A stretch of DNA of 64,000 bases, from contig NZ_CP046455.1 of assembly GCF_009734425.1 (NCBI RefSeq), positions 2,108,001 to 2,172,000 of the forward strand, in the 5' to 3' direction. Below are positions 53,812 through 59,374 of this stretch, one piece after another. Below the pieces are notes generated by a model. It saw only the letters and a program-made list of their open reading frames with translations, did no database searches and was not told the origin of the DNA. Source of the DNA: Corynebacterium occultum. GTDB taxonomy: Bacteria > Actinomycetota > Actinomycetes > Mycobacteriales > Mycobacteriaceae. The number at the start of each line of letters is the position of its first letter. Position 1 is the stretch's first letter. The position numbers and the translations under genes are program-made.

Positions 53812-54963
53812 ATGGACACCCTGAAGGACATGCTCGAAAAGGCACGTTTCTACGGCTCAAAATCTGAAGAGATCACCGGGGTGGAGATCCGGCATGAAGC
53901 CCCGGCCCTGGGCCACCGCCACGTTGTGGCCCAGGTGCATCACGGTGATCGCAGCTCCCTCTACCAGCTGCTTATCGACGCCGCGGACCGCGATGTCCTG
54001 GCCGACTCGGCCACCGAACTGGGTCAGGCCCTGGCCAGCGGCACCCCAGCCGGGTTGGGTGAACTCCACGGCAGTGCCGAGCAGCTGGCAGGTCTGCGGG
54101 GCCGGGAACATTCCGGCGAGCAGTCCAACACCTCCCTGGTCTTCGGGGATGACACCGGCGACGAGGTGATCATCAAGTACTTCCGCAAACTCGAGCCCGG
54201 CACCAACCCTGATGTGGAACTGCTCCGCGCCATCCCCGACTGCCCCAATATCGCCCCCCTCAGCGGTTGGATCACTGCTGAGTTGGAAGGTGAGGACTAT
54301 GTGCTGGCGATGATCCAGGAATATGTCCCCGATGCTGTCGACGGCTGGCATTACGCCCTGGGGTTCACCCACATCAACGCCTCCTTCGCCCCGGAATCCG
54401 CCCTGATCGGTGAAGCCACCAGGAAGGTGCACCATGCCCTGGCCGAAGCTTTCCCGGTGCAGCAGAGGGAAGTTTCAGAACTGGCCCGGGAATTGGAGGA
54501 ACGGTTGGACAGCCTGGTGGGCAGAGCCCCGGTGCTGAAGGAATTTGAGGCCGCGGCACGGGAGTTCTACCGTGACCTGGAACCTGGTACCACCCCGATC
54601 CAACGTATCCACGGTGACCTGCACCTGGGTCAGATCCTGCGGGCGGAGGAGGAGTATCTGCTCATCGACTTCGAGGGGGAACCCGACCGGCCCCTGGCGC
54701 AGCGCCGCCTCCCTGGTTCCCCACTCCGCGATATTGCCGGGCTGCTGCGCTCTCTGGACTATGCGGCAGCCCACGGCAAGGCCCCACACACCTGGGTGGA
54801 GCAGTCCGCCGAAGCTCTGCTGGAAGGCTATGGGATCTCCGCCTCCCCGCTGCTGTCCGCCTATGTGCTGGACAAGGCGCTTTATGAGGTCGCCTATGAA
54901 ATAGACCACCGCCCCGAGTGGGTGGATATCCCCCTCAGGGCGGTGCGCAACTTACTGGGCTGA
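53812..54963 (+). CDS. mak: maltokinase-like phosphotransferase
   Basis: A 383-residue kinase of the aminoglycoside-phosphotransferase fold resembling maltokinase (Pep2), which makes maltose 1-phosphate from maltose and ATP for the GlgE pathway. The nucleotide-binding N-terminal half has EVIIKYFRKLEPGTNPDVEL, and the catalytic loop is HGDLHLGQIL with a later DFEGEPDRPL. In C. glutamicum treS (trehalose synthase) precedes this gene; here an esterase does, and no treS occurs in the window. GGGAG precedes the ATG. Its stop is 8 bases from the stop of the convergent idi gene. Assignment to maltokinase rather than a related sugar kinase rests on the length and neighbourhood. Confidence 0.85.
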   Translation: MDTLKDMLEKARFYGSKSEEITGVEIRHEAPALGHRHVVAQVHHGDRSSLYQLLIDAADRDVLADSATELGQALASGTPAGLGELHGSAEQLAGLRGREHSGEQSNTSLVFGDDTGDEVIIKYFRKLEPGTNPDVELLRAIPDCPNIAPLSGWITAELEGEDYVLAMIQEYVPDAVDGWHYALGFTHINASFAPESALIGEATRKVHHALAEAFPVQQREVSELARELEERLDSLVGRAPVLKEFEAAAREFYRDLEPGTTPIQRIHGDLHLGQILRAEEEYLLIDFEGEPDRPLAQRRLPGSPLRDIAGLLRSLDYAAAHGKAPHTWVEQSAEALLEGYGISASPLLSAYVLDKALYEVAYEIDHRPEWVDIPLRAVRNLLG

Positions 54964-54970
54964 GCTTGTG

Positions 54971-55558
54971 CTAGCTGAGTTCCTCAGTGGCCAGGTTGGC
55001 GGAAGCCTCAGTCAGTGCCAGCCGCAGGTTCTGGTCACTGAGCTGCTCCACCAGCCAGGAGCTGAAGGCGAAGGGAGCGGCATCCACCGCAGCGAAAAGC
55101 TCGGCCGGTTCGATCCAGTCGAAGGAGTCGATCTCCTCCGGGTTCGGCTCCGGACGGTGACCGGGTGCCAGACGGCTGATGTGAACCGGGCAGATCTCCC
55201 ACTCCACGATGCCGGTGGAATCCACCGCCCGGTACTGAAACTCGGGGAGGATCGCGGTGATCTCCAGGATCGACTCCGCCGGCAGACCCACCTCGGTGAC
55301 GGCCCGACGACGCACCGCATCCTCATTGGATTCACCCGGGCCGGGGTGGCCACAGAAACTGTTGGTCCAGACTCCCGGCCAGGTGATCTTGCTCAACGCG
55401 CGACGGGTCATCAACACCCTGCCACGATCATCGAGCAGATAGTTGGAGAAGGCGAAGTGCAGCGGTGTGTCAGCGGTGTGGATGGTGGCCTTGAGGGCAG
55501 TGCCAGCCGGGTTGCCATTTTCATCGGCTAAAACGACCAGTTCAACGTCCTGATTCAT
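54971..55558 (-). CDS. idi: isopentenyl-diphosphate delta-isomerase (type 1)
   Basis: A 195-residue Nudix-fold isomerase that interconverts isopentenyl and dimethylallyl diphosphate. The metal and catalytic motifs are visible: HFAFSNYLLDD, WPGVWTNSFCGHPGPGE (catalytic Cys), and the Nudix-like RRRAVTEVGL; the second catalytic Glu lies in the IVEWEICPVHI block. It provides dimethylallyl diphosphate for the prenyl chain made by UppS and others. It starts 15 bases after the stop of the PPE/EspB-like gene, so idi is probably the last gene of that unit. Confidence 0.94.
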   Translation of the reverse strand: MNQDVELVVLADENGNPAGTALKATIHTADTPLHFAFSNYLLDDRGRVLMTRRALSKITWPGVWTNSFCGHPGPGESNEDAVRRRAVTEVGLPAESILEITAILPEFQYRAVDSTGIVEWEICPVHISRLAPGHRPEPNPEEIDSFDWIEPAELFAAVDAAPFAFSSWLVEQLSDQNLRLALTEASANLATEELS

Positions 55559-55573
55559 GCATTCAAGGCTACT

Positions 55574-57694
55574 CTAATTTCGCACCCAGGCCCCAATCAC
55601 TCCAGGCACCACCGGGCTGCGTTCCCCCAGCAGATCCGCTATATTTCCCTCTTCCTCCACGGCGCTGGTCACGGTCCGCACCTTGCTGGGCTTTCCCTGG
55701 TTGCCTTGGGCCCCACCCATCTGGGAACCCATCATCGGCATCATCCCCCGCCCAGTGGCTGACCCCGCACCCCGCGCGCCCTGCTGGGTTCCGCCTGCAT
55801 GGGCACCGGCATTACTGCCGGGGCTGACGTTGCCGTTGGCGTGGGCGGAACCCATGCCACTGCCGGCGCCGGTCCCCGAGAGGCCACGGGCCTGGTGGGG
55901 ATCACCGGAAACAGCTCCGCTACCGGGTAGCGCAGGGCGGGCACCAGCACCGGCCCCACCGGGGCCTGCGACCGAGCCCGGGGCAGCACTGTGGCTGAGG
56001 CGGGGAGCTCCCCCCGTGCCACCTGGGCCATTGAGACCACCGGAGGTGAGGCGGGAATTGCCGCTGACACCGCCCACACCAGGACGGGTAAGGGGGTTGT
56101 TCTGGGCACCGTTCTGCCCTGGCGCACCCATCCCACCCATCATCGGTGCACCCATGCCACCTGTCGGGGTCCCGGAAACCCCTGAGATTCCAGGGGCACC
56201 ACCGGAGAGCGTATTAAAGGAAGGGCCAGACCCACCACCGGGAAGAGCTGTGGTCGGCAAACCGGTGGCCGGCAGGACACCCGGAATCCGGCCGGAACCC
56301 GGGTTTCCGCCCGGCAACGTCGGGGAGGTGAAATTCGGGGCGGGCAGCGGAGAAAAGTTTCCCCGCAGTGCCGCAGATGGGTTGATCCCACCGGGGTTGG
56401 ATGCCCCACCGCGGAGCCCGCCGACCGAGCCGGTACCGGGAGTGCTGACTGCTGCGCCGAACTTCGGGGAACCCAGCGGAGACATCCCCAGGGCGGCATT
56501 GATCCCGGGGAACGCACCCTGGCTGCCTGCGCCGGGGGCCGCACCCGGAATGCCACCCAGGTTGCTCATCGGGGAAGCCAACGGTGAACCCAGACCAGCA
56601 CTGAAGGTTCCCAGTTCATCAGCGGCCCCGAAACTATTGAGTTCGGAGGCATTATGCCCCACCCGGGACAACTGGCTGAGTCCACTCTCCACAGTGCTGA
56701 ACTGACTGCCACCACCCACCGATTCGAAAGCCGCCGAGGTGCTGGCAGCTGCACCCGCGGGATTCAGGCCCGTGCTCTGGACAGGACCATCACCGGCCAC
56801 ACTGTCCATTCCCAAGGCGATCTCCCCGCCACCACCAGTCCCACCATCCATCGACATCAGATTCCGGATCGGCGGCACCCCGGTGACCACCGATGGGGAG
56901 AAACTCGCCGGGAAAGCAACCAGGAAAGCCCGCTCCGCAGCCATCTTCTCCACCGGTTCCACAATGGCCGCCAGGGCGGAACGTGCCATGTTCACCTGCA
57001 CCGCACCCTGGCTCTTGATCGCGGCCAACTGCTGGACCGAAGTGGTCATCACCGCCGAATTCGCCGCAAAGGTGTCCCCCGCTGCGGCCACCGCAGAGAT
57101 TTTCTCGGCGGCCGCGGTGATCACATCCCCGGAGTTCTCGGCGGCCAACCTCCCCGCCACCCCATGCAGTCCCGCCGCGACCTGCGCCACTGAGGTGGAA
57201 AGCTGTTTCCAGGTTGCCGCCGCTGTGATGGCGGCACCGATATTGGTGGCCGAGAACTCCGCCGCCAACTGGTCGATGGACATCGCCGGTGTCACCACCG
57301 GTGGGGTGAAACTGAAGTTCTCGAAGCGGGGCATCGGACGCTGCGGGAAGCTGACACCATCCGCACCCACTGCACCGCCCTCATCAGCGATGTCCATTCC
57401 CCGGCCGACATAGGTGTTCTGCCCGGTCAACGCCGTGTAGCTGGCCTTGAGCGCCTCACCCAGCCACTGGATCTGCTCCGCATAGGAGTTGAGCACATCA
57501 ACCGCGGATCCCGGCCCACCGGTGATGACGGCACCATGCCCGCTACCCAGCTGATCCAGGCCGGAAACCCCGGAGAAACTGCCGTTCAAGGTTGATTGGT
57601 GGGCGGTTGAGGCAGCGTTCATTGCCACATCACCCAGCTGTTCAAGTTCCGCAATCGAACTTTCAATCGATCCGGTGTCAATTGTGATTTCCAT
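55574..57694 (-). CDS. PPE/EspB-like protein with a 400-residue Gly/Pro-rich region
   Basis: A 706-residue protein. Residues 1-100 are helical, with W77 in the QIQWLGEAL helix as in WXG-type ESX substrates; 135-260 form a second helical domain with W162 (AATWKQLSTSV) and long Ala-rich helices that resemble the PPE/EspB fold. Residues about 270-650 are Gly/Pro/Ser/Asn-rich low complexity (GGMGAPMMGGMG, GTGSVGG). The tail about 670-706 (VEEEGNIADLLGERSPVVPGVIG) looks like a conserved C-terminal segment. No signal peptide. It may leave by an ESX/type VII system, which is not in this window. Its ATG overlaps the stop of the DUF3558-like lipoprotein gene. Confidence 0.75.
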   Translation of the reverse strand: MEITIDTGSIESSIAELEQLGDVAMNAASTAHQSTLNGSFSGVSGLDQLGSGHGAVITGGPGSAVDVLNSYAEQIQWLGEALKASYTALTGQNTYVGRGMDIADEGGAVGADGVSFPQRPMPRFENFSFTPPVVTPAMSIDQLAAEFSATNIGAAITAAATWKQLSTSVAQVAAGLHGVAGRLAAENSGDVITAAAEKISAVAAAGDTFAANSAVMTTSVQQLAAIKSQGAVQVNMARSALAAIVEPVEKMAAERAFLVAFPASFSPSVVTGVPPIRNLMSMDGGTGGGGEIALGMDSVAGDGPVQSTGLNPAGAAASTSAAFESVGGGSQFSTVESGLSQLSRVGHNASELNSFGAADELGTFSAGLGSPLASPMSNLGGIPGAAPGAGSQGAFPGINAALGMSPLGSPKFGAAVSTPGTGSVGGLRGGASNPGGINPSAALRGNFSPLPAPNFTSPTLPGGNPGSGRIPGVLPATGLPTTALPGGGSGPSFNTLSGGAPGISGVSGTPTGGMGAPMMGGMGAPGQNGAQNNPLTRPGVGGVSGNSRLTSGGLNGPGGTGGAPRLSHSAAPGSVAGPGGAGAGARPALPGSGAVSGDPHQARGLSGTGAGSGMGSAHANGNVSPGSNAGAHAGGTQQGARGAGSATGRGMMPMMGSQMGGAQGNQGKPSKVRTVTSAVEEEGNIADLLGERSPVVPGVIGAWVRN

Positions 57695-58353
57695 TAGACT
57701 CCCCCAGCCTGCTCATGGATGTCTTCCAAGTACTTATTTGCTTTCGCGCAGAGCGCGTCCAACTGTCCTTCCAGATCACGGTCGAAATAATTGACCGTGA
57801 TCCTCCCCCGGGTGGTGTGCATTGCGGCAGCACAGTGCCTATTTTCCTCCCACCCCAACCAATGGTGGTAGACCCCGGGGAGTCGAGACTCTGCGGTGGT
57901 GTCGATCAGGGATCCGGTTTCCACGATCCGGTCATAAGGAACTTTGTCCCCCGTAATCCTCACCATCGCAAAGCGTCCCTGCTCAGCGGGCGATTTAAGA
58001 GAGCAGGATGAAGAGAGCCCTAGATCATAAAAAGGCTCCCCCACTCTCTCCACAAACCCCACCTTCTGGTACACCTCCCAGGGGATTTCCGTGCAGGGGT
58101 CGAAGAGGTCGAAAGTGTCGCTCTCTCCCTCAAATTCCCCCAGCACGATCAGCGGTGCCGTGGTTTCCGGTTCCGTTTCCGCCGCCATCTCAGTTTCGCT
58201 GCCCGCTGCTGGGTGGGTGTCTGTTTCTCCGTCGGCGACCGGGATGGTGCCGCAGGAGACGCAGAGCAGTGCGCTCAGCAACAGGGCGGTGATGAGTGAG
58301 ATGGATGAGATGGAATACGACTGTCGGGTGCGGCTGAGATCAGCGAGGTGCAT
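57694..58353 (-). CDS. DUF3558-like lipoprotein
   Basis: A 219-residue lipoprotein. The signal segment (SISLITALLLSALL) ends in a lipobox-like CVSCG, with the modified cysteine at about residue 34. The mature part starts with an acidic low-complexity stretch and then has the DUF3558 pattern: FDPCTEIPWEV, VGFVERVGEPF, a second cysteine in SSSCSLKS, and AALCAKA-type CAKANKYL near the end. DUF3558 proteins are anchored outside the membrane in mycobacteria and corynebacteria, with unknown function. The stop TAA overlaps the ATG of the PPE/EspB-like gene (TAATG). The start at 58353 follows GGGGG-rich DNA. Confidence 0.78.
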   Translation of the reverse strand: MHLADLSRTRQSYSISSISLITALLLSALLCVSCGTIPVADGETDTHPAAGSETEMAAETEPETTAPLIVLGEFEGESDTFDLFDPCTEIPWEVYQKVGFVERVGEPFYDLGLSSSCSLKSPAEQGRFAMVRITGDKVPYDRIVETGSLIDTTAESRLPGVYHHWLGWEENRHCAAAMHTTRGRITVNYFDRDLEGQLDALCAKANKYLEDIHEQAGGV

Positions 58354-58620: not shown

Positions 58621-59148
58621 CTAGAAGAAGAGGTCGCCTTCGAAGGTGACGTTGCCGATCTGGAATTCAGCGTCCCAGATCATGCCGGTGGTGGTGTCGA
58701 AGACGTACTGCAGGTTGGTGGTCGCACCGACACCCAGGGGCAGGTCCAGGCCGGTGGACATTTCGGTGGTGTCATCGCTGACCCGGTCGATCTCGGTGCG
58801 GGTGCCATTGTTGTTGACGTACAGGGTGGGGCCTTCGATGACGTCCGGGGGCACCGGGACATCATTGAGGTTCTTCATCCGGACGTGGATGACCACATCT
58901 CCGGTCATGGGTGCCACGCTGGCCCCGTACATGGTCCATTCCACGTTCAGTCCGGGGTCGACGAGGGTTTCGCTGAGGTCATCGGTGGAGATGGGGTCAG
59001 CCGGGGTGGGTTCAAAGGTTTGTTGGGCTGCCGCGGTGGAGCTTGCGTCAAGACCTTCTGCTCCGGTGGGGTCCTCCTCCGATGAGCAGCCGATGAGGAA
59101 GAGCAGCGAGGACGCGGTGGCAGTGGCGAGCAGTCGGTTCAACTTCAC
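58621..59148 (-). CDS. lipoprotein of unknown function
   Basis: A 175-residue lipoprotein. The signal part (KLNRLLATATASSLLFL) is followed by a lipobox IGCSS with the Cys near residue 22. The mature domain is beta-rich (VVIHVRMKNLNDVPVPPD, LYVNNNGTRTEIDR, GATTNLQYVFDT), suggesting an immunoglobulin-like fold of the DUF4352 type. The GTG at 59148 is supported by AAAGGAC and the signal peptide; the upstream part of the long frame is non-coding. It would sit on the outer face of the membrane. Divergent from an ABC exporter gene. Confidence 0.82.
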   Translation of the reverse strand: MKLNRLLATATASSLLFLIGCSSEEDPTGAEGLDASSTAAAQQTFEPTPADPISTDDLSETLVDPGLNVEWTMYGASVAPMTGDVVIHVRMKNLNDVPVPPDVIEGPTLYVNNNGTRTEIDRVSDDTTEMSTGLDLPLGVGATTNLQYVFDTTTGMIWDAEFQIGNVTFEGDLFF

Positions 59149-59374
59149 TGGAGTTGAGTCCTTTCTGTTTCGGAGCGTGCGGGGGACTCGGACGCTGGAA
59201 GGAAAAGAGTACCGAGGGTCTCGGTCTGCGCTCCCCAGGGTTTCGCCCGCGGGGTCGCCAGCTTCTACCGGCGTTATCTTAGCGGAGGTGTCGGGCTTAT
59301 GAGCCCATGGCATAATCACATTTTCATGAGGGAGCACCAGCCCGTGCTCCGAAAACTTCAGGAAGGTTGATTCC

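Follow-up and report, generated by a model that had tools for sequence, protein, structure and literature searches.

The gene pair for a DUF3558 lipoprotein and an EspB-like protein of Corynebacterium carries, in related genomes, a co-inherited hypervariable cassette that spans the gene junction

The window analysed here, 64,000 nucleotides of the Corynebacterium occultum genome (contig NZ_CP046455.1, positions 2,108,001 to 2,172,000), contains two adjoining genes, one encoding a 219-residue DUF3558 lipoprotein and the other a 706-residue protein that resembles the mycobacterial protein EspB. In several groups of related genomes the adjacent ends of these two genes form one hypervariable cassette. 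An earlier reading made from the letters alone (the sequence-only reading) had noted that the genes overlap at TAATG, and the open reading frame calls agree: one base is common to the start/stop junction, and idi lies 15 bases on. The features of the pair are:

57694..58353, minus strand: DUF3558 lipoprotein gene, 219 residues (open reading frame call and PF12079 match)
57694..58104, minus strand: DUF3558 core of the lipoprotein, about residues 84-219, counterpart of the part that is hypervariable in related genomes
55574..57694, minus strand: gene for the EspB-like fused PE-PPE protein, 706 residues (homologues, alignment and predicted fold)
57587..57694, minus strand: EspB-like residues 1-36 (helix 1, PE-like half), hypervariable in related genomes
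56870..57277, minus strand: EspB-like residues 140-275, helical half of PPE type (Trp162 is the same in every row of a 38-row alignment)
55730..56794, minus strand: EspB-like residues 301-655, of low complexity in Gly, Ala, Ser and Pro (composition)
55577..55696, minus strand: conserved C-terminal 40 residues of the EspB-like protein, ending LLGERSPVVPGVIGAWVRN (alignments)

Using Pfam profiles we found that PF12079 (DUF3558) matches the lipoprotein above its curated cut-off (E 1.5e-9, 38.5 bits against 34.1). A lipobox-like LCVSC was read by eye at residues 30-34, so that the protein has both the profile match and the lipoprotein signal of a DUF3558 member. In a 30-row alignment the lipobox Cys34 and the core cysteines 87, 117 and 174 are invariant and Cys202 is nearly so. 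The window's own genome holds a further, sub-threshold DUF3558 match (G000:C1:2945243-2945674, locus L196).

For the 706-residue protein no Pfam family was matched at E values up to 1, the PPE family PF00823 included, and the single NCBIfam match was sub-threshold. A protein search returned 37 homologues besides the protein itself. All of those with a source name are from Corynebacterium, and the UniRef names of three are of the kind 'PPE family domain-containing protein'. An 18-row alignment showed conservation of the N-terminal part (about residues 1-300) and of the C-terminal end, with a variable Gly/Ala/Ser/Pro region between them; the first 40 or so residues are poorly conserved among more distant homologues too. 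Because of the 37 homologues and the conserved N- and C-terminal parts, we judge the frame to be a real gene and not a chance open reading frame.

The sequence-only reading had credited this protein with WXG/PPE-like helices at the N-terminus, a low-complexity middle and a conserved C-terminal tail, and all three descriptions held. The N-terminal region is predicted to adopt the single-chain helical fold of a PE-PPE pair (predicted local distance difference test 88.9, predicted template modelling score 0.82), and this model matches the EspB structures 4wj1, 4xxx and 8ako of the PDB at 7-14% sequence identity. Residues 301-655 are 26% Gly, 14% Ala, 12% Ser and 11% Pro with 5.4% charged residues, and form a low-complexity C-terminal region of the EspB type. 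The tail LLGERSPVVPGVIG is conserved in the 18-row alignment. Of 30 loci that are more distant, 29 have a closed reading frame, and most of these frames end in a recognisable form of the tail. At loci of two genomes (G170 and G121, single genomes each) the EspB-like frames are shortened or interrupted.

The pair is widespread in the genus. Residues 1-275 of the EspB-like protein match 55 of 61 sampled Corynebacterium genomes, and residues 81-275 match 214 of 242 genomes, most with a single match and some with 5 to 13; the lipoprotein sequence, which is more diverged, matches 39 of the 61. A lipoprotein gene lies immediately upstream of the EspB-like gene at all 30 loci read, with spacing from a 23-base overlap to a 216-base gap. 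A lipobox script recognised 26 of these lipoproteins, and a DUF3558 or lipoprotein match identified the other four (L021, L023, L028 and L031); by eye, those of L041 and L047 are apparently of another kind. The coupling that had been proposed for the two genes is therefore kept, and neither computable outcome named beforehand as counting against the proposal (no structural match; the genes apart in most relatives) was observed.

In three close genomes the lipoproteins are alike over about their first 140 residues and differ over the remainder, and we therefore compared the DNA of their loci. Outside a tract of about 650 bases, identity was 92-100% in most 100-base windows and 81-89% in a few. 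Inside it, two of the genome pairs had 29-59% identity and the remaining pair had 33-71%. This divergent tract begins where the DUF3558 core begins and extends to around codon 80 of the EspB-like gene. With one lipoprotein as protein query we obtained 55 proteins, of which 50 were examined; the FDPC motif allowed 48 of these to be divided into two parts. Counting the query itself, 39 sequences had N-terminal halves at least 80% identical to that of the query, and their cores fell into eight clusters at 60% identity, one of which looks frame-shifted.

We then found the same pattern in 12 genomes of the C. tuberculostearicum complex. Mean identity of the lipoprotein was 79% in the signal plus linker and 41% in the DUF3558 core; that of the EspB-like protein was 35% in residues 1-36, 82% in 37-61, 64% in 62-78, 95% in 79-300, 76% in the middle and 96% in the last 40 residues. 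The core correlated with EspB-like residues 1-36 (r 0.94, permutation p 0.0002, the floor of the test) and with residues 37-61 (r 0.69) and 62-78 (r 0.86), but not with its own linker (r 0.06), residues 79-300 (0.11) or the middle (0.05). After dereplication to nine genomes the corresponding values were 0.91 for residues 1-36, 0.64 for 37-61, 0.79 for 62-78, -0.09 for the linker, -0.24 for 79-300 and -0.30 for the middle. With four groups taken together, r between the core and residues 1-36 was 0.91. The sample for co-inheritance was the 30 best loci from 242 genomes, 27 of which were analysed.

Core and EspB-like start change independently of the remainder of either gene, and cassette alleles cross species borders. 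In the conserved part genome G223 matches G004 at 99% identity, while its core and start are nearest to those of G006 and G188 (80% in the conserved part). G073 and G149 have a common allele class (core 48%, start 71%), yet G073 has exactly the conserved part of G012, with which it shares 29% identity in the core and 47% in the start. Among 77 pairs with cores below 60% identity, similarity measured in a 15-residue window resumes at varying places, and never before codon 36. Three pairs with cores just under 60% have helices of at least 70%, and five with cores of at least 70% have helices below 70%; these are graded combinations and not shuffled ones. Taken together, these sequence comparisons lead us to conclude that in the relatives the DUF3558 core and the EspB-like start are a co-inherited hypervariable cassette spanning the gene junction. 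This junction-spanning cassette of core and helix 1 is a new finding.

Some relatives hold several copies. One genome (G026) has five pairs, two of them alike, and the unaligned gap between some copies comprises the DUF3558 core and about 37 EspB-like codons. Another (G101) has 12 or 13 EspB-like matches, and at 6 of its 12 loci read (L132, L134-L138) a lone EspB-like gene comes after a tandem row of two or three lipoprotein genes that differ from one another. Tandem lipoprotein copies were not seen in the window; allele variety and tandem genes, the latter in G101, were observed in relatives.

As had been proposed from the sequence, the EspB-like gene lies outside any ESX locus as judged by EccB and WXG100 matches. 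A single EccB gene (C1:536657-537868) and two WXG100 genes (C1:549036-549630) were found in the genome, about 1.6 Mb from the window (C1:2108001-2172000) in contig coordinates. EccB is present in 61 of 61 Corynebacterium genomes, at loci that we take to be of the ESX-4 type. The type VII secretion system (T7SS) of C. glutamicum is described as secreting a WXG100 protein in an eccD-dependent manner and as serving iron uptake by way of this protein and a receptor in the membrane; according to the same paper, PE-PPE complexes of mycobacteria import iron-bearing molecules (PMC12607788). The word 'lipoprotein' is absent from the main text of that paper, and our literature searches found no described Corynebacterium type VII substrate beyond its small WXG100 protein.

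We hold with moderate confidence that the pair is a polymorphic cognate recognition module in which the lipoprotein binds helix 1 of the exported EspB-like protein. The EspB-like protein would be exported, most likely by the machinery around the genome's only EccB gene, and the lipoprotein would be anchored at the cell surface. There its DUF3558 domain may bind its own partner at helix 1, in the PE-like half, and so dock or recognise the exported protein. Adjacent variable gene ends that are exchanged as a unit, helix 1 included, would be two parts that must match, and binding of helix 1 by the core is the simplest reading that the sequences offer. Strains would exchange one DNA tract, the core with the first 36 to about 90 EspB-like codons, through its conserved flanks, and rare specificities would be favoured; such selection for rare types could amount to strain or kin recognition. 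The sequence-only reading had suggested an envelope system of a lipoprotein and a large polymer-like protein. Its EspB-like fold, lipoprotein coupling, C-terminal tail and distant ESX genes stand, the canonical export motifs are missing, and the co-inherited cassette points to partner recognition rather than a structural polymer.

Several observations weigh against cognate recognition. The variable pieces are adjacent in DNA, and a single recombination tract could transfer both even if the two proteins never touch; our confidence is moderate because physical linkage alone could mimic matching. The WxG motif of the PPE half was found in none of 38 homologues (W.G in 1 of 30 genus loci, residues 131-190), and the export motif YxxxD/E, which in EspB ends the PE half, was found in residues 56-115 in 1 of 38 homologues (P0006) and 2 of 30 genus loci. 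The window's own clade is more diverged and the core/start signal is weaker. For 24 loci from the window's side of the genus, core and start showed a partial correlation of only 0.18 with the conserved part controlled for; when two loci whose lipoprotein frame is not the adjacent gene were removed, it was 0.42 (22 loci). On this side much of the core/start correlation tracks general divergence. Compared with its nearest relatives, the window's EspB-like protein has 51-65% identity over residues 1-36 and 84-85% over 80-290, only a moderate excess of variation in the start, and the window's lipoprotein is more alike in the core (60-62%) than in the N-terminal part (48-51%), which differs from the cassette pattern. 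The hypervariable cassette is therefore a finding on the relatives, and for the window's own allele it is at most putative. One clear swap was seen in this clade: conserved parts pair G132 with G018 (95%) and G140 with G086 (94%), and core and start pair G140 with G018 (78 and 77%) and G132 with G086 (73 and 75%). G096 and G105 are 97% identical in the conserved part, 52% in the core and 30% in the start; for G208 and G184 these values are 89%, 50% and 34%.

More tentatively, the locus may serve self/non-self recognition, or effector and immunity functions, throughout the genus by means of the type VII system, with allele-specific pairs, frequency-dependent selection and cassette exchange across species. 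If so, EspB-like proteins would gain a role outside ESX-1, and common skin bacteria would have a polymorphic recognition system. A widespread EspB-like candidate with a polymorphic partner makes the type VII substrates of Corynebacterium a testable question, and raises the question of type VII secretion for recognition between close relatives in the skin microbiota.

A rather unlikely alternative is an effector/immunity pair of type VII competition, in which the EspB-like protein would hit neighbours, the lipoprotein would protect the producer, and the variable pieces would be the toxic contact and its neutraliser. Polymorphism and adjacency fit, and the tandem lipoprotein genes of G101 resemble strings of non-identical immunity genes as described in PMC9484751. 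TilA, a Staphylococcus aureus lipoprotein encoded by the first gene of a T7SS toxin cluster, is described as binding the toxin (PMC10730906). However, searches with Pfam, NCBIfam and PADLOC found no toxin domain. Within the folded domain the sharp variability falls on one helix of the predicted secretion fold, and a large immunity repertoire is disfavoured by the single match seen in most of the 214 genomes with matches.

We consider it improbable that antigenic or phage-receptor variation acts on the lipoprotein alone while the EspB-like start merely hitchhikes as its neighbour. A surface lipoprotein with several common core types does resemble escape from phages or antibodies, and co-inheritance would follow from linkage alone. 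However, the return of similarity at variable places but never before codon 36, and the poor conservation of the EspB-like start in distant relatives too, speak against it; the main text of a C. glutamicum phage-resistance screen contains none of 'lipoprotein', 'PPE' and 'type VII' (PMC9671496), which says little on other phages. An envelope module for nutrient uptake or lipid binding, with surface EspB-like oligomers, the lipoprotein as receptor and secondary diversification, is very unlikely: it would accord with the iron uptake and PE-PPE import noted above (PMC12607788) and with the described binding of phosphatidic acid and phosphatidylserine by EspB (PMC10140165), but alone it leaves a junction-spanning cassette with many alternative alleles unexplained.

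Among known systems, EspB of Mycobacterium tuberculosis ESX-1 shares the single-chain PE-PPE fold, as predicted, and the low-complexity C-terminal region. In contrast to EspB, the Corynebacterium protein (7-14% identical) lacks WxG and almost lacks YxxxD/E, has a conserved VVPGVIG tail and a helix 1 that is hypervariable in related genomes, and is encoded beside a lipoprotein gene, far from the EccB gene. On the EspB side the chaperone is described as EspK (PMC9811218). The S. aureus T7SS lipase TslA and its immunity lipoprotein TilA likewise have the lipoprotein gene first in a substrate cluster, and the TilA family is described as variable in sequence and copy number (PMC10730906); TilA is DUF576 and not DUF3558, and no counterpart of the TslA lipase domain was seen in the EspB-like protein.

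DUF3558 matches 65 of 121 genomes of the order. In family f14 of this order a PPE-like gene follows the lipoprotein gene directly or within 78 bases (L147, L148 and others), and its product is rich in Gly in the middle and has a tail of the type PPVIG; such followers with a similar tail were found at 10 of 14 DUF3558 loci read, the gene end not being seen at L191. At L147 (PF12079 E 1.7e-25, PF00823 E 9.3e-10) the following gene encodes a member of the Pfam PPE family, and a 132-residue gene of its own comes first, whereas in Corynebacterium the helical halves are in one chain. Because f14 DUF3558 loci have PPE-like followers with similar tails, the Corynebacterium pair may have arisen by fusion from an older arrangement of lipoprotein and PPE genes. 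At L147 and L148 three genes stand in a row: a 132-residue gene, which at L147 matches no Pfam family above cut-off, then a DUF3558 lipoprotein gene, then a PPE gene whose tail reads APPVLGA or APPVIGA.

The neighbours of the pair in the window are:

54971..55558, minus strand: idi, isopentenyl-diphosphate isomerase (profile match), starting 15 bases past the EspB-like stop
58621..59337, minus strand: second lipoprotein-like gene (sub-threshold LppU match, E 0.22), true start probably internal
53812-54963, plus strand: maltokinase-like protein (match to a profile for putative maltokinase at E 1.4e-53, short of the cut-off)

The LppU-like gene is possibly a third member of the system. The order LppU-like gene, DUF3558 lipoprotein gene, EspB-like gene and idi is kept in L061-L063 beside the same ATP-binding cassette transporter, and partly in L064 and L065. 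In L061-L064 idi likewise lies close to the pair, and in L143 it lies close to the EspB-like gene. The LppU-like gene (58621-59337) adjoins the pair in L061-L063, and its relatives lie near the EspB-like gene in L064, L065 and L143. The maltokinase-like gene, close to the locus in the window, is present in L061-L064 as well.
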